Source: Cafeteria roenbergensis
Lineage: Eukaryota; Sar; Bigyra; Bicosoecida; Cafeteriaceae
Direction: 5' to 3'
Assembly: GCA_008330645.1 (NCBI GenBank)
Contig: VLTN01000051.1
Span: 1-64,000 of the forward strand
Length of the DNA stretch: 64,000 bases
The notes under the pieces were generated by a model that saw only the letters and a list, made by a program, of their open reading frames with translations, was not told where the DNA came from and did no database searches. Below are positions 22,192 through 51,401 of the stretch, piece after piece. Position numbers and translations under genes: made by a program. Each line of letters begins with the position of its first letter. Position 1 is the stretch's first letter.

Positions 22192-25100
22192 ATGGCGGCG
22201 CAGCCGAGCCGCCCCTTCGGCCCCAGCGGCGCCGCGCCCGACCCCTCCCTGTCCGTGGCTGCCGCGTGCGACCGCGCCGAGCTCGCCGCGGCCGCTGCGT
22301 CCCGCCCGCGCGCCTCGCGAGCCGACAAGCAGGCGCTGGTGGACTGCATGGCAGAGCTGGTCCGCCGCCTCCGCGCCGCCTCGGCCGAGGGCGCCGAGGC
22401 CGTGGCCCGGTCCGTGGCGCGCGGCGGGGCCGCCCTCCTGCCCCGCCTCCCCAGCGGCTTCGCGCGCGGCGCCTGGTCCCTGCAGCAGCTGCGGCAGCAG
22501 GAGGCCGTGGCCGGGCAGTTGCCCTGGCGCCGCGTGTGCGCCCTCGCCGTGCCCTGGATGCTCGCGCGCGAGTCTGCGCTCCGCACGGGCGCGCTCCGGG
22601 CAATCCGCTACGCAGTGGGGTGCCGCGCGGCCGCCCGCTACGCCGGCGCCTCGCGGCTGGCGGCGCTGCTCGTTCGCTCAATGGAGCGCTCGCCGCGCCA
22701 CGCGGCGGAGCGCGCCTCGGCTCTCCGGCTCTGCCGCTCGATCATCACGGCGTCCCCGGACACGGCACCCCGCGGCGTGCTGCGGTCGCTGGTGGTGCTG
22801 GTCGGCACGCCCGGCGACCCGCTCCGCGCCCACGCGGCAGAGGCGCTGAGACAGGCGGCGCTCGTGCCCGCGTCGCTCCCCCGCGTCGCTCAGGCGGGCG
22901 GAATCCGCGCTCTGGCCACCGTCACGCTGTCAGCCGAGATGACGTCGCTCGCCCCAGCCGTGGTCCTCACGCTGACGTCGCTGAGCGACGCGCCATGGGC
23001 CCGGCCCTACGTTGACCCGGCCAGCTGGATCGGCGTCGTCCTCTCCCCCCTCACGGCCGGCGTCAGGGCCATGGGGCTGTCGCAGCCCCAGTCAGGCCGA
23101 CGGGAAAAAGCCGCCGCCGGAGGCGCCGCCGCCGCCGCAGCCGCCGCAGCCGCCGCTGCCGCTGCCGCTGCCGCCGCCGCCGCCGCTGCTGCTGCGGCCG
23201 CCGCTGGCCCCGCCAGCGGCAGCGGGGCGGGCGGCGGCTCCGGCTCCGGCGGCGGGGCACGTGGCGGCTCTGCCGGCAGAGCCACAGGCGAGGAGCAGGC
23301 GAACGGTCCCCCGGCCGTGGCCGCCGCCGCCGCCGCCGCCGCCGCCTCCGCCGCTCTCAGCGACGGCGACGCCCCGACCGACGCCGACCGGCGCCGGCTT
23401 GCCGCGTCGCGCGCAGCCGCCGTCACGATGGCCCGGACCTGGCCGGGTCTCATCCTCCTCCTGGCTCTGCCGGGGGCTCTGCCGCAGGTGCTTGCTTCCA
23501 TCGCGCACCCTGCCGCCCGCCTGCACAGCCGGTTGACTGGCATGCGACTGGTGCTTGACCTGGTGTCGCCGCCCCACTCCCAGGACGACCACCCCATCGA
23601 GCAGGCAAGAGCCGTTGCGGTTTCGTCGTCTCTCGCGGTCAGAGCGGCGCTTCGGCGGTTTCGCGCGCTGCGTGCGGCCGGCGCGCGGTTTCGCCTGGGA
23701 TACGGTGAGGGGGGCGCCGTTCCCGACGGCGGAAGCGGTTTCGGTGACGACAGCGCAGCCGGCGGCAGTGGCGGCGGCTATGGTGGCGGCAGCGGCAGCG
23801 GCAGCGGGGGAGCCATGGCCGGCTCTGCAGGCGGAAGTGGCAGAGCCGGTGTGGGGGCGGCAATGTCCCGCGCCGACGCCGCAGCGGCGCGCCTGGCCGC
23901 CGTGCTGGCCCCGCCGTCGTCGAGCGACGCCGCGGCACTGACGTCGGCAGAGCGGCTGGTGGCGTCGCGTGCCGCCAGAGCCCTCGGCCCGGCCACCGCA
24001 GCGGAGGACGAGGCTGCCGCCGACGCGCCGGAGTATCACGCCAGCTTCTGGGCGTCGGCCGGGACCGGGCCGGGATGGGGCGCTGATGGGCCCGGGATTG
24101 GCGAGGGACGCGCGCTTGCGTCGGCCATGGCGGCGGTCGACGCAGCGGCGCGAGGGGCCGGGCTCGGGCGGGGCGGTTTCGCGTCGAGCTGGGTTTCGGA
24201 AGGGTTTCTGCCGAGGGGCCACCCGAGCGGGCCCCGGCAGCACCGTCACGACGGGTCGCCCAACCCCGGCGGAAGCGCCGCCAGCCGGGGCGGTGCTCCG
24301 GCGGCTTCGCCGCTTGATGCTCCGGTGACGCCCGAGGTGCCCGCCCCCGCTGCGCCGCTGGCGCTGCGCCCGACGGTTTCGCACGTGCTGGAGGTTTCGC
24401 GTGCCCTGGCCGTGCGGGCCATGCTGGAGGCGGGGGCCCCGCGCACGCTGGCCGTGGTGGCTACGGAGGCGTCGCCGCTGCTGGCGTTTGCGGCCGGAGC
24501 GACGCTGCGGGCGTTGCTGTCCGCTGCGGCGCGGCTGTTGCCCGAGAGCGTCGTGAGCGACGCGGCGTCTCTCCCCGAGCTCGTCGCTATGAGCAGCGTC
24601 GCTCGCACCGGAGCCCTTCCCAAGCTGAGCGTGAGCGACTTTGGCATTGCTCACGGCCACTGGGCAGAGGCGCAAGACCTGACGTGGTGGCCCAAGGAGG
24701 CCAAGTCGGGTGCGGAGTGCGGAGTTTCGGGTGCGCGACGCGGCGCGGGCAGCGGCAGCGGGTGCGGCAGCGGCAGCGGCGCGGCGGATGCTGACGCCAG
24801 TGCGGCTGCCGACGCCGACGCCGGCGCCGGCGCCGGAGCAAACGGCGATGACGGGGGCGCCGGCGGAAAGAGCCGGCGCGGCTTCACTTCAGCTGGGCCA
24901 GTCATTGACGGGGGTCACTTGCGCATCGCCGACGCATCACCCCTCGCCCCGGCCGGGTCCCGTCTCGTGGGAATGCTTGGTGGCCTCGTCAACGACGCGT
25001 CCGAGGCGTCGCTCAGTGAGAGACGCCTCGCCATTCGCGCTCTGGCCAAGGCGCAGGCAGCGAGCATGGGTCTGACCTCAGGCAGGCACGCGCCCCTGCC

Positions 25101-28100
25101 ACCCTTGCTGCGGGCGATCGAGGGAGGGGCCCTCTGCCACGCGATGGACCAACACTCTGCGGCCGTCGACACGCGCGTTGGAGCCGGTGGCCGCAGCCGC
25201 GGCGGCGGCGGCAGCGGCAGCGGCAGCGGCGGCGGCAGCGGCAGCGGCAGCGGCAGCCGCGGCGGCGGCGGCAGCAGCAGCAGCGGCAGCGGCAGCGGCA
25301 GCGGCAGCGGCAGCGGCAGCGGCAGCGGCAGCGGCAGCGGCAGCGGCAGCGGCAGCGGCAGAGGTGGTGCTGCGGCTGCTGCTGCTTCTGCTGCGGCGAC
25401 CGCGGCAGCAGCCATCGCGGCAGCAGGCGGCGGCGGCGGGGCCGGTTGGAACGATGAGGGTCCTGTACACGCGTCAGAGGGCGATGCAAGCGGGTCAGAC
25501 TCCGCGTCTGACTCCGGGACTGACTCTGATGCAAGCGGCTCCGGATCTGCCGTTTCAGGCGAAACCGCGGAGTCAGACTCCGGCGTCGATGTTGCCTCGA
25601 GGCTGTCGCTTGCGGAGTGGCGAGTGTCGGTCCAAGCCCTTTGGCACGGCGGCGTGAGGGGTCCCGTTCCTCTGCCGGGCGATGGGGCGGTGATGGACGC
25701 CATCAGACACGCTTCCACTCGCCGTCACGGCGTCGACGTCCTCGCGTCGCTCAGCAGAGCCCCGGCGCTGTTGGTGCCGTGGGGGGCTCGTCACGCCATC
25801 GCGTGGGCAGCGGACATCGACGCGGCTCTGCCGAGGATCGCGGCAAGTCTGTCGGCTCCGCACACCCGGCCGGCTCGTGGGCCCGTGGGCGGCTCTGCCG
25901 CGAAGTGGGCTCCAGTGGCCGGGTCGGCCTCTGTGTCCCGCGCTGCGCTTCGCCGGCTTGCCATCGATCACGCGCAAGTCACTCGCCAGTCATCTCCCAG
26001 TCACAGCTGGATCCTTCCTAAATCGTCGCCGCTTCGCCCCCCAGCTCCCATCCCGTCCACGTCGTCGTGGCTGTGGGCGCGTGCCGACGTCCTGTTGCCT
26101 CTACCGCGCAGCGAAGTGCCGCCTGGCACGGCTCTGCACTGGGCTCTGTCGCTGATCGTGCCCAGAGCGCGGGCCTGGTGGCGCGGGGCGGTTGCAGCGC
26201 ACATGCGGCAGCAGCGGCGACGCATGTCACAACAGTTGCAGTTGCAGTTGCAGTTGCGATTGGGGGCCAATGCAAGGCCGCACCAGCAACCGCTCCAAGG
26301 CGAAGACACTGGCGGAGAAGAGGGCGCGATGGGCTCTGCCGGTGGGTCCGGGTCGTTAGCGTTGGGCGGGGCGCGTCGTGGCGTCGCTGGCGCGCGCGTT
26401 CGGTCGCCGCTGTCCGGCGCGTCCGGCACCGCTGGGAGGGCCGATCCTTCCAGGCTGGCGCTGGACGATCCTTCCGATGGCCCTCTGGCTGCGTCTCTGC
26501 CGAGCACGCCTCATGGCAGAGCTGTCCCGTCGTCGGCAGAGCTCCGCGTCGCGGAGGTGGAGCGATTGGCCAAGGTTGGGTCGCTCGCGGCGGCGGCGCA
26601 ACAATCCGCCGTGGCGGGAGGGGTTTCGCCGCTGCGCCGGCGGGCCCATGCGCGACTGGGGTCTCTCGCATCGGTCGACAGCTATGCCGGGTCGGCCCTC
26701 CTGCAGTCATCGGACGGTCTTTCGCCTGTCATGGGCCTGTCAGGCCGCGACGAGGACCCATTCAGCAGCCCAACCGGCGACCGGACGTCAGTGGCGGGTC
26801 AGGAAGACTTCACAAGCCCATCAACGCCGCAGGCAGATGACGAAGGCAGCGTGGATGCCGCCGGGGCGCTCACCGCCCGACGCAACGACGACGACGACGA
26901 TTACGACGACGGGGGGGTCGGCGACGGTGTTGGCGGCGACGATGGCGATGCCGACTCCACCCCTCTGAGCGCAGTCGGGAGAGCCCGGCAGCGGGGTCGC
27001 GGCAGAGCCAGCCCGCGGCCGTCGTCTCTGCACGGGGGTGCTGGCGGAGTCGCTGGGTCGGAAGATGTGGGTCTCGCGGTTTCACCGCCACCTTCATCGG
27101 AGACAGGCGTTGACGAGCTGGGTCTGACCCCAGTTGGCAGAGCAGCAGCATCTCGCGGGCTCACAGCTGGCAGCGACGACGACGGCGACGACGGCGACGA
27201 GGCGGGTCGTGAGAGCGCCGGCTTTGAGTCCGACTCCAGCGACGGAGGCGTCTCTCGGCTGAGTTCGCGTCAAGCGTCCTCCTGGGGCGACCGACCCGCC
27301 TTCGGCAGCAGCCGCAGTCTCGCCGGCGCTGGCCGTGCTGGTGGTGGCGCTGCTGGTGGTGGCGGCGCTGCTGGTGGTTGCGGCGCTACTGCCGGCGGCG
27401 CTGCTGCTGCTGGTGCCGGCGGTTCGGCCGGCGGTGCGGTTTCGGCTGCTGCCGCCCCCGCTGGTGCTGCTGCCCCGGGCGCTGCCGTCGCGGCACGTTC
27501 GCGCGTGACGTCGTCCCACGAGCGGCGCCGGTCTTCGGCTCTGCTCACCCTAGTGAGCCCGAGACGAGGCGGCGGCGGCGGCGGCGTCGACGGGTCCGCG
27601 TCCCCGCTGCAGGCTGACTCACTTCACAGCTCTGCCATGGGAACCGGCGTGTCGGTGGGCCGCCCCCTGGAGGCATCCATGCAGACTCCCTTCGCCGATC
27701 CTTCCACCGGCTCTGCCACTTCACGAGCTCTGCAACGCGCTCGAGCCATCCTTGAGGCGTCCCCGCCCCCCGACAGCCCCTACGGGGCAGTGACTCTGCC
27801 GCCCCGCCCCCCCGAGGCCGCGGCGCTGGGCGTGGTCATGCTCGACCCTTGGTCGATCGCGCCGCCCCGGCAGAGCGGCGTCGGGGCGCTGGTGGGGGCG
27901 CTGGCGGCCAACACTGCCGGGAGCGGCGTGGCGGGGCTCGGCTGGATTCCGCCGGCAGAGCTGCGGGGCGGGGCGTCGTTGCGGCCCCCGCGCCTCGCGG
28001 GAGCGGCCCCGTGGGCTCTGCTTGCGGTGGAAGGATCCAACAGGCGGGGCGATGCTGTCCCGGCAGGGCCGGGCTCTGCCGCGTCTCTCAACCGCCCCGC

Positions 28101-31100
28101 GACGCCGGCTCCAAGCCTGCCTTCGTGGTCCGTCAGCGACGCGGTTGTGGCAGCGGCGATTGCCGAGGCAATCACCGGCCCATCATGGGCGGGTCAGCAC
28201 GGCACGAACGGTCGGCCGTCTCCCAGCGGGCCGGCGAGCCGGCCAGCGGTTTCGCGGGCGCAAGGGGGACGCGGGGCCCGTGGCGTTGGCCGAGCGCACG
28301 GGGGCCGACTGGCTGGTGATGGGCAGGTGATGCCTTCCCAGCGCTACGGCGAGGGGTTCGGTCACGGGTTTGCCGTTTCGCCGTGGAACGGCTCTTCCTC
28401 CCAGGGTCTCGGGGGGGCGGTCACGCCCGGGTCAGGCGGCGGTCACGCGCCGTGGCTGAAGCAGGGGCCCTTTGACGAGGCGTGCGGGGGCGGGGAGGGG
28501 GCCTGGGGGGCCGGCTGGGCGGGGGGCCCCGGGGCCTCCACCGGCGGGCGAAACCGCTTCACTGCGAGCGGCGGTTTCGTCATCGGGCTTGCCCCGTCCG
28601 CGCGCAAGGGCGAAGGGTCAACGTCTCGGTCAGGGCGAGACGTGTCCTTGGGAGCGAGACACGTCGCAGGTGGAGGCGCCGGCACGGACCACGGCGACGC
28701 CGCCTCAGGAGGCGACGGCTCCGACTGCTCGATTCACCACCACGCATCGCAGCCGCAAGCCCTGGGCGCAGCCGCGGCCGTGGCCAGCCGGGGCAGGCTA
28801 GCCGATGCCTCCTGCGCGACGTCGGCCGCCAGCAGGGCCGGCGCCACCAACGCGGCGGTTAACGGCTCCAAAGCCGCGATGCGGCAGCGGTTACGCCAGG
28901 CGCTGAAGCAGCGGCAGGCGCATGGACAGCTCGCGAAACCGCACGCGAAACCGGCGCCGACGTCGGCGTCGACGGGGAGTGCGGCCCGACCAAATCACGC
29001 AGCAGGGGGCGGCTCTGCCGGCAGAGCTGCCCAACCCGACGAGTCGCCGTCGTCGCCGTCATCAGCCCTGCGTGGCGGGCCGCGCGGGGCGGTTTCGCCC
29101 AGAGAGCCGTTGCAATCCAAGGCCCGGCCGGCCGCCTCAGCCGCTTCAGCTGCAGCCTCAGCTCTGCCGCCGGCGGTCCCCGCTGAGCGAGCGGTTGATG
29201 CCGCCGCCTTCGCGCGCGGTTTCGGCGCCCCTGCGCCCTCCCACGACGCCGCGCCGCTCGACCGGTTCGGGGGTCTCTGGATCCCTCCGACGGAGCTGCC
29301 GCTTCGCTCTGCCAAGGCGGCGGAGGTGCTTCGGGGGGTGGATGCGTTCATGCTGGCGCTGCGCCATGACGCCGAGAGACACGCGTCGCTCGTTGCATCG
29401 GCGGTCAGGGCCCTGCCGACGTCGGGTGCGGCGGATCGATCAGCCGACAGGGGCCGGGGGGGCCACGGGAGGGGCTTCTCGGGGGCCCCCTTGGACGATC
29501 GTCTCACCTACTTGCTGGCGGCAACAGGCGATGCAGAGCCGGAGATGGACAGCAGAGGCGTCATCGGCTTCAGAGTTCAATCTGCAACTGCAACTGCAAG
29601 TGGTGGTGGTGGTGGTGGTGGTGGTGGTGGTGATGGTCGGCGTTCGCGCGGCGCTAGCGCCAGCTCCGGCGCAGGCGGCGGCGGCGGTGACGTTGACGGC
29701 GATGGGGAGGACTGGTCAGCCGAAACCGCGCTGGCAGAGGCGATGACGTCAGCGTTCCTTGACGAAGAGGAGTCAGCTGGAGTCGCTGCCACCGCCGACG
29801 TCGCGGCGACGGCCGCGGAGGAGGTGGCGGAGGCGGCCGTGGCCACGGCTGCTCGGGTGAGGGCCTCTGAGGACCCGGTGGCCACGGAGACGGCTGAGCG
29901 AATTGCGGCGGCACTTCTTTCCGCCGCGGCGCGGTTGCGAGGCGTCGCTGCGTGGGCTTCAAGCGTGATGGCGCTGGAGGCGATGCAGCCGGCTCTGCCG
30001 GCTCTGCCGACATCGGGAAGCGGAGTTGCCGCCGCGTCGTGTCTCATCGCAGGCATGGCGAGCAGTGGCCCCGGGGTCAGTGACGAGGCCGCTGATGCGG
30101 TGTTGCGTGGGTCTGGGCGTGGAGCCGGTGCTGACGGAAGTGAAGCGGAGGCCCTGTTTGAGAGCGACGCGGCCGGGGTCACTGGGGGCCTCTGGGACGC
30201 GGCGGCGGAGCGACGCGACGCGGCCCATGCCAGCGGCGTCACTGGGCTGTCGCCCGGCGCAGCGATCGCCCGCAGCATCGCGGCAGGCGGGGTCACTGGC
30301 AGGGTCGCTGGCGGCGAGAGCCAGTCTGGCGGCGGCGTCGCTGGCTCCAGAGGCGCTGTGTCGGGTGCTGCCGGTGCCGGTGCCGGTGCCGGTGCCGGTG
30401 CCGGTGCCGGTGCTGCCGGTGGCGGCGGCGGCGCCAGTGGCTGGCGCGGCGGCCTGGGGCCGTGGGTTTCCCGGAAGCGACAGCGGTTGCTGCGGAGTGC
30501 GGAGTTCAGTGACGACGAGGAGTCGGGGTCAGACTCCAGCGCCCACGGCTCGAGTGACTCTGCATTGACGGACGACTCAGCGCCCAGCGTGACCGCGGTT
30601 TCGGCTGCCGTGGCTGGAGGATCGACGTCCAATCAGCACCGCGTCCCCGCAGAGGCGGGCAGCGGCTCTGACAGCGACACGGTGTCAGGCCGCAGCGACG
30701 AGGACGATGACCGAAGCGACGACGACGCCGCCGGTGGGACGGGCGGACGAAGCAGCAGCAGCAGTGCGGAGCGGTCGAGCAGAGCCAGGGCGGAAGGATC
30801 TGGCAGAGCCATGGCGGAAGGATCGTCTCAGGCGCGGATGCCGTTCGGCCGGTCCCTATGGGGCTCTGCCGCCCGTCGTCTGGGAAAGGACGGTGACGAC
30901 GGCCGGCGTGACGGCGATGCGGGTGACGTGGGCGGTGTCGCCGCTGCAGCGAGCGCCAGAGACCCGACGGCGGCGGTGGGGTCACTGAGAGAGCCTGCTT
31001 CTGAAGTGCGTGATCAGCTGACGGGAGCTCGCTCTGCGGCTCTGCAATCCTTCCCATCGTCGCTCAGGACGCCCCCCGCGTGCGCGCCCGTGGGGCCGTC

Positions 31101-34100
31101 GTCGTCCGGGCTATCCATCCACGAAGTGGGCGGCTCCATCGCGGTTTCGCCGCAGCTCTCGCCGTCGAGCGACATTCCCGGCACTGGTATCGACGAAGTG
31201 GCTCTGCCGGAGCGGCGCAGAGCCACTTCGCTGACGGGTCCCCGGCAGCGGGTGAGGGCCGGATCGATGACGTCATCCGGCCGAGGCAGCGCCTCCGGCG
31301 TGGGGCCCACGCCTGCGGGCTCTGCCGGGTCGTGCAGCTCTGCCGGGTCCGTCGGCTCTGCCCAAGAAGCCGAGGGCGACGGCGGTGCGGCGGCGGCGGC
31401 GGCGGCTCCAGCGTCCCCCGCGGACGGTGACGCGCAGCCGAGGGCCGCCGTCGCGGTTTCGCGCCTGCGCCCCCCGCTCTCCCCGGAGGAGCGTCGTCGA
31501 TCGACCAGCGGAGGGGACCTCACGTCTCCCCTCGGACTGGCTCTGCTGGCAGAGCCGCGAGGCGACACAGGGCCCGCCGACGCCGCCAGCGGCCGGCGGC
31601 GGCAGAGCGATACCGAAGTGAGTGAGGCGGCCAGCGACCGGCTCTCACCGGACCCGATGTCTCCGCACCCTTCCGGAGCCAGCGTCCGGTTCGGCAGAGC
31701 CACTTCACCCCGTGGCGGGCAGAAAATGGCGGGGCTTCCTGGGTTGGCGTCGGTGGATCCTTCCATCGCCGCTGACGTCATCAGACCAGTGTGGCGGCCG
31801 GAGACGGATGGTCCCATCGCTCTTCAGTCCCTGGACGAAGTGGCTCTGCCGGGAGGGCGGCGCATTGCTCCTGGAGTCATTCCAGTTTCCGTTGGACTTG
31901 TGCAGACGGGACGAGCGACGCGCTCGCGAAACCGCCGCAAGTCGCGTCGCCTGTCAGCGCCCGTTCACGGCAGTGAGCCCGGTCCCGTCTCCGCTCACCG
32001 CACTGTCGGCAGTGGCGGTGGCGGTGGCGGCGGCGGCGGCGGCGGCGGTGGCGGCGGTGACGAGAGCGACGGTGACGCGGACGTGACTGAGCGGCAATGG
32101 GGCGACGATGCCGGGGAGCCAGCGGTCAGCGGCTCCTCCTCTCCCGGGGGCCGCCAGACGTCGCGGCGTCCTTCCGCTGGCCAGCCGAGCCATTGCCGGA
32201 AGGATCGGAAGGATCGGAAGGATCGCAGCTCTGTTGCCGGCGCCGGTCGTGGGTCGACGTCTGCGTCTCGACGGTCGAGAGTGGTCGTCGCTGCTGACCC
32301 CGCGTCCACGGCGGTTTCGTCGCTGACTGCGGGCGGCACCTCTGCGGGGGACATGACTGCCTTGGGACTTGCCCTTGATGCAATGGTGATTGCCGACGCG
32401 GACACCCTTGCAGCCTGCGCGGTTTCGCGGGCGGTGTCGTCCGCTGTGCAAGTGGCGCTGAGCGACGGTGCGGAGGTGCCTGCCAACCCCGCCCAGCGGC
32501 TCCGCACGTCGGCACGCCGTGCCATGGACGCGGCCCGGCTCGGCGGCGAGGCCGCATGGCTCGCCACCGGCAGAGCTGCAAGGCGCGACTGGGCGTGGCA
32601 GAGCCGGCGAGGTGTCGTTGGTCCGGCCTGGGGAGGCTACGGGGACGGCACGTGGCGGCGAGTGGCGGCGGCGGCGGTGCTGCTGGCGCGACCGCTGGAC
32701 AGCGTGACTCGCGCACGACCGACCCCAGAGGTCCGTTGGGCTCTGCGCCGCTGGGCCCCTCAGCCGCAGTCACACCCACAGCCACAGCCACAGCAGCACC
32801 AGCAGCACCAGCACCAGCAGCACCAGCAGCAGCTTCGGCAACCGTCGTCGTCTCTGCCGGCAGCGCCCGTAGCGCCCGGGCCGGGCGAGGGCGCGGCCGC
32901 CGCGGCACCCTCCCCTGTGCCTGTGGCGGCGCTAGCTGGCAGCGGGGCGTGGGGCTGGGCTATGGCCGCTGGCTCTGCCCTGGCCCTTGCGCCGGGCGGA
33001 GCGACGCTGGAGAGTGTTGGTCTTGCGCTGGCGGAGGGGCTCTGCCCTCGAACAGAGACGGGTGACATGGTCGTGACTGGCTCTGCCAGAGTGTGGAGCT
33101 CGATTCACGTGACCGCCACTCCTGGACCGGGGGCCCCTCAGGGGTGTTCGTCGGGCAAGCTGCTCAGGCGACCCGCGTCCTTTGCGTTCGATCCGTCGGC
33201 GATACCTTCCACCGAATCCACCGCCCCGCGGCGGGGCAGATACGCGGGTCACTCGGGGTGGGAAGCGGTTTCGCAAGCCATGAACATTCCGCTCCGGTTC
33301 CGCGAGGGAGAGTGGTCGGCAGGATCTGGCGGCGTCGCTCCGAGGCAGTTTCCGCAATGGCGCGCCGCAGAAATTTCCCGGAAACTGTCAGGACTCGGCC
33401 GCGGCGCTACCGTCGGAGACGTCGCCGCGGCAGGGACAGCAGCTGCCGCGGCCGCTGCGGCAGTGGCGGCGAGGGTGCTGGTCACCACAGCAGCTATGAT
33501 CCGTGCGGAGACAGCAGCCTCGGCGGCGGCGGCCGCGGCAGCGGCAGCGGCAGCGGGCTCGTCGGCAGAGCTGTCCGCTGGTCGATCGTCTGCTCTGGCA
33601 GCCCTTGGCTCTGCAGGCGGTGGCTCTGCCGGTCCGTACGGCTCTGCCGGTATGTCGTCGCCTCGCCGACGTCCAGTCATGGCGACGCGGGCGGATGCGA
33701 CGTTGACAGAGCTGCAGGCCGGTGTCACTGCCGGGAGAGCCGTGACGTCAACGGGCGACGTCGGCAGACCCATGCCTCCGCCCAGCGCCATCGAAGCGAC
33801 AGCCATTGCCGCAGCGCGTGAAACCGCTGGCTCGACAGCGCTTGAAGCCGTTTCGGAAGGGGACGACGACGACGACGACGACGACGACGGTGATGACGGT
33901 GGTGACGACGACGGCGCGGGTCGCGAGGGCGGACGCGCCGGCGGCGCCACCGGCACGGTGTCTGACAGCGACGGGACAGAGCACGGAGCGGGCTCTACCG
34001 GCGGGCGTTTCCGTCGAAGGTTCAGCAGCCAATCGGCCGGCCCGCGTCAACGCCGGCGGCGGGACCGGCAGAGCAGCTCACAGGAATCCTTCCAGTCGGG

Positions 34101-36439
34101 CTCTGCCGGCGCTGCCTTTTCAAGTGGCTCTGCCATGAGTGTGGTCCCGCCCCCGTCAGCTGACCTTGTTCCGGGAGAGCCGGTGAACGAAGCAGCGGTT
34201 TCGCAGCTGATCTACGTCCGACCACGGCCGGGCTATCGCCCGGCCGGGCGTCTCTCAGTTCAGAGAGCCGGTGACAGGCTGTCGCCTTGGTCTGTGGTGG
34301 CGAGCGGTGCCGGTGGCTCTGCCAACGGCTCAGGTGATGGGGAGATGATGGTGTTCGATGGTGGTGCCGCGGCAGCGACTGCTTCCGCTGCGGTTTCGGC
34401 GCTGCTTGGAAGTGGCTCTGCCGGCTCTGCATCGGCCGTTGCTGGATTCGGTCTGGGAAGCGACAACGTCGGCTCGGGAACCACTGGCTCTGCCGCGCTG
34501 TCCGTTGCCGCGGGGTCATTCGTCGTTAGCGTGCGCTCTGCAGGGGTGCCGGGCTCTGCCGGATCCTTCCGGTTCAGCGACCCGGGCGGTGCGGACGCCG
34601 ATGAAGAGACGGGCGGTGGCTCTGCCGGCAAGCTGCGCACGAGCGCGGTGTGGTCTGGCGGCGGCGGCGGAGGCAACGGCGGCCGTGGCGGCGGAGGCGG
34701 CGGCGGCGGCTCGTGGGAGGACGAGACGACGTCGGCGGCTGCAGCCTTGCGGCAAGCTCTGCCGGCGGGATCAGTGTGGTGGTGGTGGGGTCGAGACACT
34801 TCGGCTGCCACCCGGCGGGCAGAGCTGCATAAGAAGTGGCAGAGCCACAAGCTCGCCATGCAGAGACGTGAAATGGATCGAGATATGTCTCGCAGGGCAA
34901 GACACGTCTCCGAATCCGCTGCCACGATTGCCACCTCGTCAAGCGCGTCTGGCGGTCAGCTGACACCGACGGCCGCCGCCAGCAAGAGCAGCTCTGCCGG
35001 CGGCGGCTGGGAGGTCTCTTCGAGCGCCAGCAGGCGGGTGCGGGCGGGGGGCAGCGTCAGCAAGGCGCTGCGGCTGCTGGGGGTGTCAGCGGTGGACACT
35101 GCTGGTGCTGGTGCTGGTGGCGGAGCCGTCGATGGCGGTGGTGGTGCCGGCAGCGTGGCGGGCAGTGACGCCAGCGGTGGCGGCGGCAGCGGTGGTGCTG
35201 CCGTCTCAAGCCAGCGTCGTGACTCTGCCGTGGTGACAGCTGCCCTTCGCTCTGCCGGGTCACTGGCCAGGGCCATGCTTGCCGAAGGCACGCACCGCCT
35301 CGCCCGACCACTCTCCACCAAGGCGGCTGCCAGACTGCGCGCCCGCGCCGCCACAGCTCTGATCCTTCCGTCAGCTGACGCCTTTGCAGAAACGGTTGTG
35401 CAGACCCAGTTTGCAAGGCAGAGCCGCTCGCAACGGACAGGAGCCCTCTTTGAAGGGCAGGCACAGAGTGGCTCCCAGTCCGCCGGGCCCAGTCACGAAG
35501 CCATCGCGACCCAGTCTGTCCGCGCTCTCGGCGCCGTTGCGGCAGTGGAGCTTCTAACCGGATTCACGCCGCTCGGCTCTGCCGACCGTGGGGCGATCGA
35601 CGAAGCCCCATGGCGAGTGATGGCCGCTGAGGGCTTCTGCCAGACGCGCCACGCGGCTGCAGCGGCGGGTGCCGCGAGCGCCGCGCCGGCGCGAGCCGTA
35701 TCGTCGACCTCGCCCACGGAGGAGTCGGAGTCGTCGGCAGGCACGACGGCAGAGATCCCCGGTGCGGCGGAGTCGCTGGCGGGGCCCGCCCACGGGCCCC
35801 TTGAAACCGCGGGTGACTGGATCAGGCTGGGAGCGACCTTGGAGGCGCGCCGGCTCTGCCGTCGTGAGCGACGCTGTCTAGCCCTTCAGCGCCGTCGCCA
35901 GCGGGCGGGGCTGCCAGTCTTGAGCGACTCCGGGACAGGGCTCCAGAGCTCAAGGGGCCCCGCTGGGGGCCCTGTCACGCCTGGCCAGCAGCGCCACCAC
36001 TCTCACCAGTGGCCCGGCGCCCGCGCTGTGAGCGACGACGGCCTGGGCGCCGCTGCGGGGATTGACGACGGACTGGATGACGGCAGAGCCATGTCCCACT
36101 TCGACGCGGGTGTGGCTCTGCCACTTCGCTCCTCTTCGATCACGGGAGTGTGGAGCCTTCCTGAGACGGGATTCGCTGTGCCGCCGAGCGTCGTGGACAT
36201 TTCCCGGATTCTTCTTCGCGCGTTCCCGCCAGCGCTTGTGACGCGGCCAGGAGCGCTCGTACCGGCTCTCTCGCTGAGCGACGCGGGGTCTGCGCGGGCG
36301 CTGGCGGTGCTTCAGACGCTTGCACAGGCGCCGACGCCGACGTCGACGTCGGCGGCTCTGCCGTCGTCGTCACGGTTGGCGCTGGCCTGGGCAACGGCTT
36401 ACATTGCGGGCTGGGGGGGCGGTGGCGGCGGCGCTGTCA

Positions 36440-36485
<46 letters not shown>

Positions 36486-37248
36486 CGGCGGTCGCTGGTC
36501 TGGCGTTGGTCCGGCCACTTGGGTCGGCGCTCTCGGCGTGCTGACGCACACTGCGGCGCCCATCGCAGAGGCCTTTGGCATCGCGACGTCGTCATCGATG
36601 GCAGGATCGGCAGGATCGAGGTCCACTTCGTCGGCTCTGTCGATGCTGCGGGCTGCGAGGTCCTCCACCCGCGCCGCGGAGGCAGGATCAGTGGCCTGGC
36701 CTGCAGAGCTGCAGAGCCGGGTGTTGCCGACGTCCATGTCAGGAGCGGCGTCACGGCTCTACCGGGGCGAACTTCGCGCGGCGTCGTCGTGGAACTTCCT
36801 TGCAAGCTCTGCCGCCGACATTGACGACCGGTACGGCGGGCGAGAACCCAGTGCGGAGATTGCGAGCCGGGCAATCGCTGGGCGCGGTTTCGTGGCGACG
36901 GGTCCGTCAGCTGATGACGGGACGATTCTGGGTTCGCGTGAGAGACGCACTCTGGCGGTTTCAGCGTCGCTTGCAGGGGAGGGGGGCTCTGCCAGCGTGA
37001 TGGGCGGCGGCCACGTTGACGACAGCGGAGGGTCGGCTGTGGCCAGCGGTGCTGTGGGGCCCACCGGCGGTTTCGGCGGGGGACCCGTGGACACTCATCC
37101 GGGCGGGGGAAGCGAAGTGCGGAGCAGCAGCGGAGTTTCTTCGTCGGGTCTCCGCATTGGCTCTGGCGGGGGCGGCGGCGGTGCTGCCGGCGGTATTGGC
37201 AGCGGTGGCGGTGGCGGCGGGGGCGGGGGCGGCGGAGTTGGCGGCGGC

Positions 37249-37282
<34 letters not shown>

Positions 37283-40200
37283 TGGGCTTGGGCGGTCGGG
37301 GCAGCGGTGGCGGCGGAGGAGGACGAGGCGGCGTCAGCCGTGGGGGCGGCGGCAGCGACATCGGCGGTGGCGGCGGTGGCGGCGGCAGCGGTGGCGCTGG
37401 CGCTGTTGGTGTCGGCGGCATCGGTGGCGGCGGCGGCGGTGGTGGCGGTGGCGGTTCCGGCGTCGGTGTTGGTGTTGGTGGCGGCGGCGGTGGTGGCAGC
37501 GGTGGTGGCAGTGGTGGCGGCGGCGTTGGCGGCGGCGGCGTGGGCGGCGGTGGCGTTGGCAGCGGCGGCGTCGATGCGGTCGGCGGTTCAGTGAGCGGTC
37601 ACTACGGCGCCAGCAGCGGCACCAGCAGCGGCGCTGTCGGTGGCGGAAGCGGGTCTGCCGCTGCCGCTGAGGCAGTGGGGTCTGACCCCGGGGCAGCGAC
37701 TCCGGAAGACGCGGCTCTGTCGCGAAGGGCTCTGCTGCTCGTCGCCGCGTCTGGGGTTGAGCGCGCAGCCGACTGGCGGGAATGGGACTGGACCATCATT
37801 GCGGAGTTGCTTGACGCGCACCTCCCATCTCCGCACGTCATGGCAACCGTCCTCACCAAATCAAGGTTCATGCACCGGCTGGCGCTGGCGTTCATGCCGG
37901 CGGCGGAGTGGTTCAACCTGCCAGCTGAGGGACCCGCAGCGTCGCTCAACGCCTCTATGGCGCAGGCGTCGGCCACGGACCCGGCTACGGCCGCGGAGGA
38001 GGCGGCAGCGGCCGAGGCGGAGGCGTCGCCGTCGCCGTCGGCAGCAGCGGCGGCGGCGGCGGCCGCTGGCGCCGGAGGCGCCTCTGGCGGAGCGGCAGGA
38101 TCTGGCAGGACCCGTCGGGCGTTCGGCGGTTTCGCGGGCTCTGCGCTGCGTGGCGATCGACGAAGGGCTCTGTTCCGGCCAGGCGGCTGCGCCGCCGGCG
38201 GATCAGCTGACAGTCCCGTGACGGGGGATCCATCGTCGCCCCACCCGAGAGCCGGTGCTGGCAGCGTGTCGCGTCTCCCGTGGGTGGGGGCGTCACTTCG
38301 CTTCGCCAGGTGCCTGCGGCAGTGGGCGCTGCTTCTCGTCCACAGCCCCACCGGCAGAGCTGAGCTCATGGTCCGAACCCGGACAACGCGCCGCGGCGCC
38401 GCGCCCGAGGTTTCGCCGGGCGACGTCTTGCGATCGACGATGCTCTCTCTCCTGAGCACAGCGGGGGCCCGCGGCCCGGCTAGACCCGCCCTTCCCCCTG
38501 CAAGCTCTACCAGCTCTACCAGCTCTACCGGGTTCTTGGGCGCTGGCGCCGTGGTGCGGAAGCCGCCGCCGCTGGCGGGGCCGCTGTTCACTCACTTCAG
38601 GCTCGGCAACGAGCTGGCCAGAGCATACGTTGACGTCGCCTGCGCCATCATGTCCACATCATCCGGCAGAGCTGTGATGGCGTCCTTGGCAGAGCATGAT
38701 TGGGGCAGAGCCGATCCTTCCAGCGATGCCAAGTCCTCCTCCGCCTCCGCGGCGGCAGCGGCGGCAGCGGCAAGCCAGGCGTCACACCGCGGGGCCTCGC
38801 AGGGTGATGGCAGAGCCAGCTCTGCCGAGCCCACTTCGTGGACGTGGGGTCCCGGAGTGGAGCTGGCGGGCGGGCGGCTAGCCGTGGCGGTCTGGGCCCG
38901 CCGCGCCCGCGACCAGCGTGGCTGGGCTCTGTCGGCGATGGCGGAGGGGTCTGTCTCCAGCTCTGCCGGGAGCAACGCCACCTGCGCGGCGGCAGCAGCT
39001 GCCAACAACGCAGCAGCTGCCGGTTCTAGCGGTTTCGCGGCCATCAGCGGCGCGTCAAGCCGTCGGTCGAGCGCGTCGGGCGGTGGCGCCGCGGGGGTGA
39101 GCGATGCCGGTGCTGGTGCTGGTGCTGCTAACGGTGCTGGTGCTGCTAACGGTGCTGGTGCTGCTAACGGTGCTGGTGCTGCTAACGGTGCTGGTGCTGC
39201 TAACGGTGCTGGTGCTGCTAACGGTGCTGGTGCTGCTAACGGTGCTGGTGCTGCTAACGGTGCTGGTGCTGCTAACGGTGCTGGTGCTGCTAACGGTGCT
39301 GGTGCTGCTAACGGTGCTGGTGCTGCTAACGGTGCTGGTGCTGCTAACGGTGCTGGTGCCGCTAACGGTGCTGGTGCTGCTAACGGTGCTGGTGCTGCTA
39401 ACGGTGCTGGTGCTGCTAACGGTGCTGGTGCTGCTAACGGTGCTGGTGCTGCTAACGGTGCTGGTGCTGCTAACGGTGCTGGTGCTGCTAACGGTGCTGG
39501 TGCTGCTAACGGTGCAGCTGACGGTGCTGGCGGCAGCCGCAGCAGCAGCACCGACGGTGCCACTACCGGCGTGGGTGGCGGAATTGACGGTGGCAGCGGC
39601 GGTGCGGTGGCCGGCGGGGCGGGTGTTTCGGCCGATAGATTGGCCGCTGACCGGGCAGGGTCTGGCGCTCGCTCCCCGCGTCGGCAGAGCTCTCCCGTTC
39701 GTCGCAGGATGACGTCAGTCGGGGTGGCTTCCGCGTCAGGACGACGTGGTCGCGCTTCCATCGTCACGGCTCTGCCAACCACCATCAGGGGCGTGTCACC
39801 GCTGCTTGCAGCAACGCTCGAGGGGGAACCCCCATCAGCAACGCCCGTCGTCGATCCAACGGACCTTTTGGGGTCGCTCGCGTCGCTCGGCTGCGAGCCG
39901 CCGCCGCGCATCGCTGCCGCCGTCGCGGCAGAGGCAGCTATGGCCACGCTCTCGCCAGAGGAGGCAGCTGCGGTTTCGCGGCTGGTTGCCGAAGGGTCGG
40001 CGCCGTCGCCAGCGCCATCGCCGTCGTCGTCGTCCGCAGCAGCAGCAGCAGCAGCATCATCGGCGGCGGCGGCGGCGGATGGCGGCGGCGGCGGTCGGCA
40101 GTCATTCATAGGTCGCGGGTCCATCACTGGAGCATCACCGTCAGCGCGCGGCAGCGTTTCTACCATAGGCGGGCCCGGCGGCGAGGTGTCTGCGGCGCAG

Positions 40201-43200
40201 CTGGCGAGGCGGCAGCGCGTTGCCATGGCGGTGCGGAGAGCGGAGTCTCTCAACTCCGCACATGCGGCGTCGCTCGCCCGCCTGCGGCCCTCCCAGCGAC
40301 TCACTGCAGAGCTGACCGAAGTGTGGCCCGAAGGCAGGCACGCGTCTCTCGCCAGGCTCCTGGCCGCGTCGCTCGATCCCGGAAGGATCCCTCAGGCCCG
40401 GGCACTGCTGCGGCGCTGGGCCAGGCACGGCGGCCAAACGCTTCGCCGACACTGCGTCGCATGCTACCGGCTCTTTTTGAGACAGGGCTCGCCGCTCTGG
40501 AGTCGCTGGGGCGTCTCTGCACTGGCAGAGCTGGCAGAGCCGCCCGCCGCTGCGGTGGACCCGGTTCGGGCGCAGATGGCGGTGTCTGTGCTGGCGGAGG
40601 CGGCACTGTCCGCCGACGTGCACCGCCGCGCCATCGTGGCGCGGCGGCCGGACCTGTCAGCTCTGCCGGCTGGGGCGGCGGCGCCGCTGGTGGCGGCGGC
40701 CGCGGCAGGCTGGGGCGGCAACGGCTGCGACGAGGGCGAGGGGGTGGCCTGGGCGGCGGAACTCGGCGTTCTGGGCCGTGTGCTGGCCGGCTGGAGCGAC
40801 TCTGGCAGCGTGCGTCACGTGTTGTCCGTTGAGGCCGCCATCGCGAATGCTGTCGCCAAGCCGGCGTTGGGTTTCGCCGACGGACCCCTGTCTGCGGCAG
40901 GGGCACTGCCGTGGGTCCCGGAAACGCCTCCCACGCTGGCTGTCAGGGGTGCATCTGCACGCAGCCAGGCGCAAGTCGCTGGCGGGTCCGCGACTGACTC
41001 CCTCCCAACGGACCAACAGACGTCAGCGCCGGTGGCTCGACCGGCTTGGGCCCCGGATTCGGCGACCGGACCAACATCGTCGGGACAGGCCGGCCCCACT
41101 TTCAGCGGTTTCACGGCAGAGCCGCAGCCGCTGGAAGTGCCGTTGTGGCTGCCGCAAGCAGCCGGTTCGGGCGAGGGCCGCACTGCATTCGGCGAAGAGT
41201 GGTCGATGGGGGCCCTGTTGCGGTTGCCGTGGCGGATCGAAGTGTGGGCAGAGTGGTATGTGTCAGCTGACGGCTCTGCAGCCGGGCTGGCAAAGGCTGC
41301 TGCTGCCGCCGCGGCGGAGGCGGACGAGATGTCACACCCTGGTCACGGCAGAGCTGGCAGGCGCAGCAGAGCCACTTCGTCAGTTCCGGAAGGAGTGAGA
41401 CTTGTGCGCGAGAGGGTGGCAGTCGAGACGGCGGTGGACCTGACCGCGTACCGGCCGGAGCTGGGCGAAGCGGCTCCCGGACAGGGGGCCACCGAGTGGG
41501 CCCCGTGGGTCGACAGCAGACACCGAACTGCAACTGCAACTGCAACTGCAGGCACCAGTGCCGGTGGCGCCGACGTCGAGCCGGCATCTGCCGGTGCCAC
41601 GGGCAGTGGTGGTGCGGGAGGCGGCGGCGGCGAGACCGGCCCTGCCGCCGGCAGTGGTGCTGGCGGCAGCTGCGTCGAGGGCCCGCCCGCCGGCGCCAGC
41701 GCCGCGGCCGCCGCTGCCGGCTCGTCGTCCGTGCGGACGTCGCTCCGTGACTGGGCCAACGGCTCTGCCAACGGCTCTGCCGGGTCTGTCCCGCTGTCGG
41801 GGGGCGCTGGTGTGACCATCGTCGGCAGAGCTGTCGATGACGACGGGGCGGAGCGACCGGCTCTGCTTCGGCCCGGGGCGCGGCTGCGCGTGGCGCTGTT
41901 CCTGGGGCCGCACGCCGTGGACCCGGCAACGGGCCAGTGCGCGTTCTTCGGCCGGCCCGGTGCCGCTGCCGCCGCCGCCGCCACGAGGGCCGCTCACGCC
42001 GCGGCGGCTGTGTCTGAGGAGTGCGGGGCTGCTGCCAGGGGCTGGCTGCTGGCCGCCGGAGACGCGGACTGGACCCACCAGGCGGCGGCAGGATTTAGAG
42101 CCGGTCCTGCAGGCAGGGGGGTGGGGTCAGTCAGCAGCTCTGCGCTGGCTGCGGCGAAGTGTGGCTTGCGGCCTCCGGCCAGCGCCATTGGAGGCGGCTC
42201 TGCCGATCCTTCCAGGATGCGTGGTGATGCTGCCTCTGCGGCAGTGCGACTGTCTGCGGCTCTGCCGACGCGGTTTCGCGGGCAGTTGTCGTGGGCAAAG
42301 GATGCCCTACTGGTCGACGTCGATCCTTCCGCCAGCGTGACGGCGACGGCCGCAAGGGCGGCTGGAGAAGATGCCAGCGGTTTCGCGAGCGACGAGGAGG
42401 CAAACGGCAGCGGCGGCCGCGGCGGCGGCGGCGGCGGGTGGGGCAGCGGCGGCCGCAGCGGCAGCGGCAGAGGGGGTGCTAGGGGGCAGCGGCCGGTGCA
42501 TCTATTCGCCGCCCCGCTCGGCGGCGCAGCCGTTGCCGCGGCAGCTGCAGCGACGGAGAGCGCAGTCGTTGCAGCAGCGTACGAACAGTCCACGCGAGCG
42601 GTGGCGGCGCCGTCCGGTGGCAGCGGCAACGGTGGCGGCGGTGGCGTTGGTGGCAGTGGCGTTGGTGGCAGCGGCGGCGGCAGTGGCGGCGACGGCGGGT
42701 CCGGGAGCGACGGCGGATCTCTTCGCCGAGGTAGCAGCGCCCATCACCGGTCCATCACCACAGACGACGAGGCGTCATCTGCGGGCCTGTCTCTCATCGG
42801 TGCAGGCTCTGCAACCGCAGCAGCAGCAGCAGCAGCAGCAGCAGCCGCCGCGGCGGCGGCGGCGGCAGGTGCTGCTGGATCCGGGGGTGCCTCCGGCTCT
42901 GCCACCGACGAAACCGCAGGAGCCGACGTGGACCCTCATTCACTGGCCCAGCGTGCGGTCGGATCGCGCGGCGGTTTCACGGGAAGCAGCGCGTCGGGCT
43001 CGTCGTCCGGTCAGCTGATGCCGGGGTCGCTGCTCAGCGTGGACGAAGAGCCGGTGCGGCTGCGCACGCCAGGCCACGCCGGGCTAGTAGCGAGCGCGGC
43101 GGCGGCGGCCGCCACCCGCTGGTGCGCTGTCGACGTCGGCGGGCTGGTGCCGCAGCCGCAACCGGAGCCGCCGGAAGGATTCAGCTCTGCCGCCCTTCGA

Positions 43201-45138
43201 CGGGCGCTGGCGCAAAAGCTGGCCACAGACGGAAGCGGGGCCGGCGAAACCGCGCGAAGTGGGTCTGGGACGCGTGGATCGTCGACACCTCGCGGATCCA
43301 CCGGCCGTGGCAGTGTGGCTTCCAGAGGCGGCGTCGCTGGGCCGGGCGCTTCGGCACCCGGTGTCGCAACTGGGGCAACTGCAACTGGTTCAACTGCAAC
43401 TGCAACATCACAAGGTTCTCCTGCGCCGGCGCTTGAACCCGGCCAGCACGTCCCGCCGCTGCCGGCAGAGCCGTCGCCGCGGTTCGTGCGCGTCACGGCG
43501 CCGCTACCCTTTGCCAAGATTGTGGTGACAACGACCACTCTTGCCCCAGGAACGGTCCACCTTCACTCGGTCGAGATGCGGGTCAGACCCCTGCCGCAGC
43601 GACAGCACCAGCGACCCCTGCCACTCTCGCCGCCAGCAGCGCTGGCCCGCACCGCCATCGGCCGCCGAGCCCTCCTGCGAAGCGGCCTCCTCCACCAGGC
43701 AGCGGCGGCTCTGTCAGACCCGGCTCTGCCGACACTTCGTCGGCGAGCGGCATTGTGGACAATTGCTGAAACCGCCAGCGTTCCGGCCGGGTACGCGCTG
43801 CTGACCCGCCACGTCAGCGCTGACGTCATCCATCGGGTGGAGTCACTGGCCGCAGGGACCGCGGGCCCGGGAACAGCGGCCGAGTCTCTCAGCCTACGAG
43901 GGACAGCGCTGGTTGCGGCGTCCATCATGAGCCAGTCTCCCGCCGCTCGCGTCGACCTCGCGGCGCTGCAGTGGGCTCTGCCGGCTGCGTTCGGCATGGG
44001 CACGTCCACGGGCGGCGCCTCTGCCGCGGCCATGGCTGGGGTCGAGGGCGGCGGGGCCGACGGCCCGGTTGCGGACCGCTACCCCCTGCGGGAAGGGTGG
44101 TCGTGGGCGGCAGCAACGGCTGCGGCGGCGGACTCGGAAACTCCGCATCAGGACGGTCAGGCCCCCAGCGCGCCGGCGAGCCGCAGGCACTCTCACAGCC
44201 AGAGCCGCCAAACGCCGCTGGACCCGTCGCGTCGCGGTTTCACGCAGTCGCAGGCCGACAGCGTGCTGGAAGGCGGAGTGTCGGTCCCGTGGGCGGTTGC
44301 TGGCAGCTCGGGCGCGCACGCGGTTTCGCAAGCCGCAGCGACTCTGAGCGACTTTGGCGACGGGTCCCTTCCCGCGTCGCTCGTGGTGGGCGCCGGGGCC
44401 CCGGCCGGAGTCAACGGCGTGCTGGCTTCCGCCGAAACCGCCGGTGCCGCCCCGCCCGCTCACGCTGCGGCAGCCCCTCTGGCAGAGCTGGTGGCCGCCC
44501 CGCTGCGACCGATCCTTCCTCTCGACGCCAGGGGCCTGCTCACGCTGGCTCTGCCAGCCCTCCGCGACGGACCGGCAGCGCTGCCGCCCGTGCAGCTGCG
44601 CCGCCGGCAGGATCCGGCGGCCGCGTCCGCGTCCGATGCAGAGCCCAAGGACGAGGACGCGGCCGACGACGCAGCCGCTGGGGCTCGAGGCGGCAAGTCT
44701 GGAGGCGGGCTACGGGCGGCGGCGGCTGGGGACAGGGCGCTGCTTGCTGCCGAGACCGCCGGGCACTCCCCTCCGGACTGGGCCGTGGGAGGCTCAGGCG
44801 CGATCCACGACGTCGACGGCGGTTTCACGCACGGCCCGCGGCTGCCGATGGTGGAGACCGACGACGAAGCTGCGGCCGTGGAGGCGGTTTCGGCGCTCGG
44901 ACTTCGCTTCACGGAGAAGGACGGCGAAACCGCGCTGCACCGGCTGGCCCGCGAGCGGCCGGAGGTGCTTCGAAGCCCGCGAGTGTTCCGCGCCGTGCAT
45001 CACCTGCTGGCCGAGCTGGAGCTGTCGCTGCCCGCCCGCAGGTTCGTTCACGCGCTCTTCGAGGGCGTGCCGATGGACGAGGCGGCGTGGGCCGGGCTCG
45101 AGGCAGCCAGGGGCGACTCAGAGCTGATGGGCGAGTGA
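22192..45138 (+). CDS. RICTOR: RICTOR (TORC2 subunit), giant 7,648-residue form
   Basis: RICTOR (AVO3/pianissimo) is the defining scaffold of TOR complex 2. ATG 22192 (context CCGCAATGGCG) opens 7,648 codons without a stop. Conserved pieces occur in RICTOR order: N-terminal helical domain with RTGALRAIRYA and ERASALRLCRSIIT (about 45-290), MARTWPGLILL (about 410-460), MLEAGAPRTLAVVATEA...LPELV (about 725-800), WREWDWTIIAELL with KSRFMHRLALAF (about 5195-5243), ARALLRRWARHG with LWSRWGVSALAEL (about 6040-6156), RRAALWTIAETASVPAGYAL and LSLRGTALVAASIMS (about 7150-7263), and the C-terminal HHLLAELELSLPARRFVHAL (about 7578-7648). Known RICTOR proteins are roughly 1,200-1,800 residues. The excess is Gly/Ser/Ala/Asp-rich low complexity, about 4,400 residues of it between residues 800 and 5195. 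Some insertions could be unspliced introns, but most must be open because random GC-rich sequence would contain many stops. Confidence 0.93.
25195..25368 (+). repeat. GGCAGC hexanucleotide expansion inside RICTOR
   Basis: Tandem GGC/AGC units, including an almost pure run of about a dozen GGCAGC hexamers at its right end, coding for a Gly-Ser polymer. In the other frames it reads as poly-Ala and Arg/Gln-type repeats, which explains the long shadow frames here. Confidence 0.9.
29600..29635 (+). repeat. GGT triplet run inside RICTOR
   Basis: Eleven or so uninterrupted GGT codons, giving a poly-Gly run. Use of one codon only points to recent replication slippage. Confidence 0.88.
33865..33915 (+). 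repeat. GAC/GAT triplet run inside RICTOR
   Basis: About eight pure GAC codons followed by mixed Asp/Gly codons, encoding a polyacidic stretch. Similar but shorter acidic runs occur near 26885-26950. Confidence 0.88.
37160..37580 (+). repeat. Poly-glycine domain inside RICTOR
   Basis: About 140 residues that are mostly glycine, with scattered Ser, Val, Ala and Ile, built of GGC/GGT codons. It ends just before the conserved RICTOR middle domain (from about 37770). The antisense strand reads as poly-Pro, a shadow. Confidence 0.9.
39115..39510 (+). repeat. 18-bp coding minisatellite, 22 copies, inside RICTOR
   Basis: Twenty-two perfectly phased copies of an 18-bp unit encoding Gly-Ala-Gly-Ala-Ala-Asn. 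All copies are identical except one third-position change near 39360, so the array is very young or homogenised. It lies between the conserved middle and RasGEF_N-like parts of RICTOR. It is not a CRISPR array: there are no spacers. Confidence 0.97.
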
Positions 45139-50564: not shown

Positions 50565-51401
50565 GGCCCCGACTGCGCAGGCTGTCGGGAGTGCGCCGCC
50601 GCGGGAGCGCCGAGCATCGGAGCAAGCCCTGGGCTCTGCCGCCGCGGAATGTCGCGCTGGCTGATGCTCGCTCTGGCGGGAAGCACGCCTGTATCCCCCA
50701 TCGGGGCACATCCGCTGGGCCGTGCAGCACACACCCGTGCAGCAGTCGAATTCGCGCGGACGAGCGGGCGGGGAGCAGTCCGCGGCTGCCGGCAGCAGTG
50801 CTGCTCGCGGCGCGATTGCCGCCGTTTGCGCCCGCCTCGCCCGACCGCAGTCGCCCCACCGCCCTCCACACCGCTTAGGCATCTAATCGATGCGTGGTTA
50901 GTGACAACCTGTTTGGTGTGGGCGCGGGCGCAGCAGCCGGGCAGCATCCCTGCACCCATTCGAGCGGCCGAGCGGCCGAGCCGAACATAAACACACCGTG
51001 CTCCCGCCTGCCACCGCCAAGTACCGGTCACAGCGCCACTGTCCGGCAGGCGCCCTCCGAGGAGCATGCAGAGCGAGACGGGGCGCGGGGAGCCTCCTCC
51101 CGGCCGCTCCAAGAGCCCACGGCCAGCGCCCTCGCGGCGAGGCGCGAACCGTGCTGCCCCCGCTCCCTGCCGGGCTTGGCCGCCCCCGCCCGATTTCCAC
51201 GTGTGCCGTGTGAGCGAGACAAGCAGACACAGGCCCATCACGCGGGTTCATGCGGCCGATGCAGCAATCGAAACCAGCCCGACGACACGCATGCCACAGC
51301 GCGCTGCCGGATCACAAACGAAGCCGTGGCCACCGCTTCCAGCAGCGGTGGCCGAGGCCCTGCCCCACGGCTTCCATCACTCGCAAGCCGCTACCATTCC
51401 A
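50565..51401. promoter_or_regulatory. Spacer upstream of ankyrin gene B / downstream of GTPase
   Basis: Contains the promoter side of gene B, similar to that of gene A (for example about 51085-51130 and 48205-48250), and the 3' region of the GTPase gene. No gene or known core element recognised. Confidence 0.55.

Follow-up and report, generated by a model that had tools for sequence, protein, structure and literature searches.

A RICTOR orthologue in an open frame of 7,648 codons in Cafeteria roenbergensis, probably enlarged by low-complexity inserts

A single long frame for a probable TORC2 scaffold

A single open reading frame in the stramenopile Cafeteria roenbergensis is predicted to encode a greatly enlarged orthologue of RICTOR, the core scaffold of TOR complex 2 (TORC2). 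The frame lies in the first 64,000 nucleotides of contig VLTN01000051.1 (assembly GCA_008330645.1; contig C51 in our numbering), a stretch hereafter called the window, where it runs on the plus strand from an ATG at 22192 to a TGA at 45138, uninterrupted through 7,648 sense codons. It is open and coding-like, holds two RICTOR domains above the Pfam cut-offs, contains few intron signals of the usual form and has long counterparts elsewhere in the genome. A preliminary description of this DNA had recognized one frame of about 7,650 residues at four to five times the usual length, and both figures agree with our measurements, the enlargement being 4.5-fold relative to the human RICTOR chain of 1,708 residues.

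We consider it quite probable that this protein is a normal TORC2 scaffold orthologue enlarged by Gly/Ala/Ser-rich inserts in a genome of about 70% guanine plus cytosine (GC). The whole frame would be translated as one chain, whose N-terminal helical domain, middle block, RICTOR_V and C-terminal block would adopt their folds and join TOR and SIN1 in a complex, in the manner known elsewhere in eukaryotes. Gly/Ala/Ser/Pro-rich inserts between and within these blocks probably form disordered loops, and the linker that separates the N-terminal domain from the middle block probably constitutes a single tether of about 4,300 residues. We infer that GC-rich repeats slipped and duplicated in frame, that the inserts arose in this way and were then tolerated, and that a similar process probably enlarged TOR and various other frames in this genome.

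RICTOR identity

Orthology, as judged by profile matching, is secure at two of the blocks. The Pfam profile RICTOR_N (PF14664) matches residues 100–289 with an E-value of 3.6e-25 and 89.2 bits, compared with a cut-off of 28.5, and this match places profile positions 11–199 at 22489–23058 on the plus strand. Likewise, a phmmer comparison with sequences of the PDB aligns residues 126–288 to positions 95–258 of human RICTOR (E 1.2e-5). A probable second part of the same domain, covering profile positions 195–252, follows collinearly at 23350–23511 on the same strand (E 0.11, below the cut-off). The RICTOR_V block (PF14668), which carries the SLRGT motif, is located at 43738–43974, again on the plus strand, and scores 31.6 bits in a genome-wide search and 30.2 bits in a short piece, where the cut-off is 27; in a longer piece the score falls to 24.6 bits, under that cut-off. 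A search of 36,303,456 bases on 167 contigs yielded a single match for RICTOR_N and a single one for RICTOR_V, both in this frame. For reference, the genome paper describes the Cafeteria BVI assembly as 36,327,047 bases in 170 contigs with a GC content of 70.1% (PMC6972860).

Two further blocks can be assigned to RICTOR weakly, by collinearity. A middle, RICTOR_M-like block at 37741–37932 (plus strand) aligns by phmmer to residues 743–806 of yeast Tsc11 with an E-value of 0.18, and a C-terminal block at 44905–45072 (plus strand) aligns to residues 1626–1681 of human RICTOR with an E-value of 0.092. The C-terminal block is followed by 21 residues here versus 27 in human RICTOR. Because these E-values refer to a set of 177,635 sequences, a RICTOR match in collinear position says more than the number suggests, although each one alone is weak. 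A HAD match located outside the linker (E 0.18) was rejected.

Coding character of the frame

From stop to stop the frame extends over 8,101 codons, opening after a TGA at 20830. The longest frames reached 597–880 codons in a set of 20 Markov sequences (order 2, 100 kb each) modelled on the 20–46 kb region, and the length of the RICTOR frame is thus far beyond chance. Within the linker the frame has no stops, compared with 58, 81, 74, 45 and 59 in the remaining five frames and with 54.8 predicted from codon-position composition. A three-base periodicity accompanies the openness: each of the 25 windows of 900 nucleotides between 22501 and 45000 has a period-3 power of no less than 5.2, whereas the pair of windows preceding them have values of 0.8 and 1.3 and the seven from 45001 have 0.6–2.2.

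Six frames were also compared per window by a codon score that had been trained on 11 long frames from another contig (C20). The RICTOR frame comes out on top in 129 of 150 windows overall; within the linker it ranks first in 79 of 84 windows, and in 75 of 84 on a second grid, while upstream of 22192 it is favored in none of seven. Two in-frame ATGs, at 21121 and 21220, precede the one at 22192, but neither was accepted as the start, since period-3 power and codon score reveal no in-frame coding signal there. The GC content is 70.3% in the 64-kb window and 71.8% in the first 200,000 bases of C20.

Linker, inserts and tandem repeats

The linker comprises about 4,320 residues (831–5150, with limits set by eye), encoded at 24682–37641 on the plus strand. 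Gly, Ala, Ser and Pro make up 56% of it, and its low-complexity fraction is 0.86; sequence of higher complexity is found, for instance, at residues 1108–1582, 1765–2312 and 4333–4713. Those linker pieces that were searched contain no Pfam domain at an E-value of 0.001; a TFIIA match in the linker was sub-threshold (E 0.13) and was rejected. A smaller Ala/Gly/Ser insert of tandem-repeat character, at 23059–23349 (plus strand), probably falls within the N-terminal domain, since RICTOR_N seems, on a weak match, to resume after it; GCC-type tandem repeats accompany this insert at 23110–23204 and 23320–23354.

Tandem-repeat searches identified several other arrays on the same strand. A (GCAGCG)n Ser-Gly array lies inside the linker at 25193–25361, and a glycine-rich array with periods of 6 and 15 and 67–68% matches precedes the middle block at 37165–37570. 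At 39115–39515 an 18-bp unit encoding AANGAG repeats is present in 22.3 copies with 99% matches, and this array is probably a recent expansion. Among all tandem-repeat rows in the frame, some of which overlap, the period is divisible by three in 44 of 46, and in 24 of 26 when only periods of at least 9 are counted; just upstream of the ATG the corresponding count is two of four, and downstream it is one of three (periods 16, 342 and 341). Together with the absence of linker stops (45–81 in the other frames) and the codon score, these periods bear out the earlier judgment that the bulk of the frame is under coding constraint. Arrays span 2,429 of the 22,947 bases of the frame, or 10.6%. Slippage of GC-rich triplets is the probable cause of the growth: in alanine runs, where each of the four GCN codons occurs, adjacent codons are identical in 54% of cases versus 27% expected, and in glycine runs the values are 62% and 53%.

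TOR, SIN1 and RAPTOR

Both TOR and SIN1, partners of RICTOR in TORC2, are present in the genome. The TOR frame measures 4,822 codons from stop to stop, and the 4,683 codons that were read hold mTOR_dom, FAT, FRB, kinase and FATC domains, all above their cut-offs and without an intervening stop. This frame contains 31 homopolymer runs of at least six residues, and its low-complexity fraction is 0.77. The length of the TOR protein is uncertain, since the start of the frame is provisional and three donor sites in it give six candidate introns of a length divisible by three (3n). A SIN1-like gene of ordinary size, encoding about 560 residues from an approximate start, is found on the minus strand at 448–2145 of L017 on contig C10; its CRIM match (1.3e-10) is above the cut-off and its SIN1_PH match (8.9e-5) below. 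Raptor_N is matched at 4.0e-41 inside a stop-to-stop frame of 5,083 codons.

Bicosoecids, the group of Cafeteria, also belong to the Bigyra. A survey published in 2025 covered TOR components in more than 800 genomes; it reports that the Bigyra examined, namely Blastocystis and labyrinthulomycetes, retain RICTOR without SIN1, and its main text does not name Cafeteria (PMC12467227). In budding yeast, as a review states, the C-terminus of RICTOR shields the FRB domain of TOR from rapamycin-FKBP12 (PMC5745459). By analogy, the Cafeteria C-terminal block would be rightly placed for similar shielding, and the TOR frame here does have an FRB domain.

Long frames elsewhere in the genome

Frames of great length occur in many parts of the Cafeteria genome, though unevenly. 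Seven of 14 PI3/PI4-kinase matches, TOR included, fall in stop-to-stop frames of 4,470–7,891 codons, the sixth of the long frames other than TOR having 7,147 codons. In a separate PI-kinase domain an in-frame insert of about 200 residues appears by eye to be rich in Ser, Gly, Ala and Pro. The first 200,000 bases of contig C20 (L018–L037) contain four stop-free frames of 4,438, 4,655, 4,709 and 6,635 codons. Low-complexity fractions are 0.57–0.88 in these four, the longest of C20, compared with 0.87 in the RICTOR frame and 0.29–0.46 in four other frames of the window. The possibility that the C20 frames encode dyneins found no support: in nine pieces, which covered the 6,635-codon frame except for 1,777 residues, a single PX domain was the sole Pfam match at an E-value of 0.001.

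A protein of such size had been expected to be exceptional. The frame is indeed the longest among those examined, but the TOR, Raptor_N and six other PI3/PI4-kinase matches in frames of 4,470–7,891 codons, along with four frames above 4,400 codons in 200 kb of C20, do not bear out that expectation within this genome. The enlargement of RICTOR is best read as part of a wider, uneven inflation of frames in this genome.

Introns and rival explanations

A stop-free intron of triplet length is a real possibility in the Cafeteria genome. Introns here seem to resemble GTGAG...CAG, with C fractions of 0.41–0.53 in eight examples that include TBP (the others come from L040–L059 and L003). The TBP intron, which has published support from reverse-transcription PCR (RT-PCR), is C-rich and 213 nucleotides long, and reading through it in the gene frame leads immediately to TGA. 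Further instances were sought in gaps within protein-kinase domains, of which 20, chosen for staying in frame, were fetched from 31 counted by hand among the matches listed. GTGAG...CAG borders are present in seven of the 20, and five of these seven have no stop in the read frame; introns can therefore hide within open frames. The other 13 gaps lack such borders, one of them (L053) having only a GTGCG donor, and many, not all, are Ala/Gly/Ser-rich.

Much of the RICTOR linker might be removed in the same manner, as stop-free introns of 3n length, to yield a mature protein near normal size. The five stop-free candidate introns among the kinase gaps, selected as they were for being in frame, speak for this alternative, as does the published mean of 1.67–1.89 introns per Cafeteria gene (PMC6972860). 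Nevertheless, we judge it very unlikely. A test covering GTRAG donors found 18 GTGAG and no GTAAG motifs in the 22.9-kb frame, and two candidates of GTGAG...CAG form, at 27553–27873 and 31618–31722, which together account for 142 residues; in 200 codon shuffles the mean number of candidates was 1.28 and the maximum 7, making the observed two close to chance. The better of the two, GTGAGC...GGCAG on the plus strand (27553–27873, 321 nucleotides), includes one (27682) of the six most C-rich 90-nucleotide windows, a point in favor of splicing, yet it is more probably coding than an intron. Moreover, the linker has no stops where 54.8 would be expected, and the one intron with RT-PCR support that was read meets TGA at once. 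For gene finders, this genome carries a warning: stop-free introns of triplet length and true inserts are indistinguishable here without RNA.

That the frame spans more than one gene or transcript, such as N- and C-terminal halves of RICTOR joined by a stop-free spacer, strikes us as highly improbable. Such an arrangement would suit the 14 kb that separate the RICTOR blocks and the lack of a recognized domain in the linker pieces searched, but chance would not be expected to leave 4,320 codons of spacer without a stop, a coding signal in the same frame persists through the linker, and in human RICTOR a single chain carries both the N- and the C-terminal block. An assembly artefact, whether by false repeat expansion or fused sequence, is scarcely credible: an error of this sort should break the frame, long open frames are present on further contigs, and repeat arrays cover just 10.6% of the frame, even though the 18-bp array is 99% identical across 22 copies and repeat arrays are difficult to assemble.

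Several observations weigh against a normal scaffold enlarged by inserts. Taken singly, the middle match (E 0.18) and the C-terminal match (E 0.092) are weak, and unrelated chains score equally well or better in the same match lists. A RICTOR or Tsc11 chain was weakly matched by two of five short pieces; the other three gave no RICTOR chain up to an E-value of 10, and the same C-terminal-side region, searched as a single piece of 2,512 residues, gave none up to an E-value of 1. The profiles RICTOR_M (PF14666) and RasGEF_N_2 (PF14663) were undetected in the pieces or in the genome, and a control was silent for both as well, so that absence is not shown. The preliminary description had held that every recognizable RICTOR block is present and collinear and had proposed a search with the Pfam profiles; RICTOR_N and RICTOR_V were matched, but with RICTOR_M and RasGEF_N_2 unmatched and the middle and C-terminal blocks weak, "every" is too strong.

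The coding signal is uneven as well. A rival frame scored equal or better in 21 of 150 codon-score windows, with failures partly clustered at the glycine array (37.0–37.3 kb) and the AANGAG array (38.8–39.3 kb); codon-position GC is flat across much of the linker; and period-3 power drops below 2 in 27 of 190 windows of 240 nucleotides. As to inflation elsewhere, five of the long PI3/PI4-kinase frames and RAPTOR have low-complexity fractions of 0.33–0.69, values that describe the 769–1,150 residues around each match and therefore do not show the inserts of these frames. Finally, among the protein-kinase matches listed, for which 119 of 286 candidates were scored, the median length of the 119 distinct frames is 757 codons, with ten of at least 2,000 and none of 4,000.

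A more far-reaching proposal, which we consider unlikely, is that in this lineage the TOR machinery is translated in full as giant, largely disordered chains (RICTOR of about 7,600 residues, TOR possibly about 4,700 and RAPTOR perhaps as many as about 5,000), that the tether may have gained a role, and that GC has driven the inflation of scaffolds genome-wide in a free-living eukaryote. Under this proposal, the tether of about 4,300 residues may, for instance, allow the N-terminal domain to work at a distance from TORC2 particles or between them, or may alternatively drive their condensation.

Neighbouring genes and downstream arrays

Pfam matches in the window outside the RICTOR frame include an ABC transporter with two ABC_tran stretches at 11492–15628 and an Exo_endo_phos2 phosphatase domain with a C2 domain at 17234–19777, both on the plus strand, as well as TmcB TPR and PAS matches at 62218–63984 on the minus strand. 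Downstream of the RICTOR frame are two tandem arrays, one of 342-bp units at 45981–47373 (4.1 copies) and one of 341-bp units at 49198–50256 (3.1 copies). The minus strand looks ankyrin-like by eye. The frame at 50271–50882, the only one scanned near these arrays, has no Pfam match.

Comparison with known systems

The Cafeteria protein resembles human RICTOR (for example the 1,708-residue chain 6zwm_E) in its N-terminal helical domain and, weakly, in its C-terminal end, which occur in the same order, and also weakly yeast Tsc11 (1,430 residues, 9rsq_C) in its middle block; RICTOR_V is recognized here by Pfam. It differs from both in being 4.5–5.3 times longer, in its very long Gly/Ala/Ser-rich inserts, and in that RICTOR_M and RasGEF_N_2 are unrecognized by Pfam. 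With about 6,000 extra, mostly low-complexity residues, a core TORC2 scaffold would offer a natural test of how much disorder is tolerated, and where.

Among the leading entries listed from the open-licence literature, no title or abstract opening reports such a finding for giant proteins, protein length or disorder in Cafeteria, or for a protist or giant RICTOR. In its main text, the Cafeteria genome paper, which describes the organism as a free-living flagellate maintained in culture, mentions neither low complexity, a giant gene, a large protein or protein length, nor TORC2 (PMC6972860). By length, Cafeteria RICTOR belongs with the "huge proteins" of more than 5,000 residues, a class whose description does not mention Cafeteria, stramenopiles or Bigyra in its main text (PMC11573180).

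Parallels to the inserts are found among parasites. Coding CAG repeats in Eimeria give rise to homopolymeric amino acid repeats (PMC8785600), and triplet repeats in coding sequence are common to both organisms, although Eimeria is a parasite with CAG-based repeats, whereas in Cafeteria, which is free-living, GCN and GGN codons are mixed. Pervasive homopeptides and low-complexity regions are likewise shared with the homopeptide-rich proteome of Plasmodium falciparum, where the runs are of residues with AT-rich codons, asparagine foremost, in contrast to the GC-codon residues Ala and Gly of the Cafeteria runs (PMC7534687). With long frames elsewhere in its genome, that of TOR included, Cafeteria may provide a GC-rich counterpart to the asparagine-rich Plasmodium proteome.

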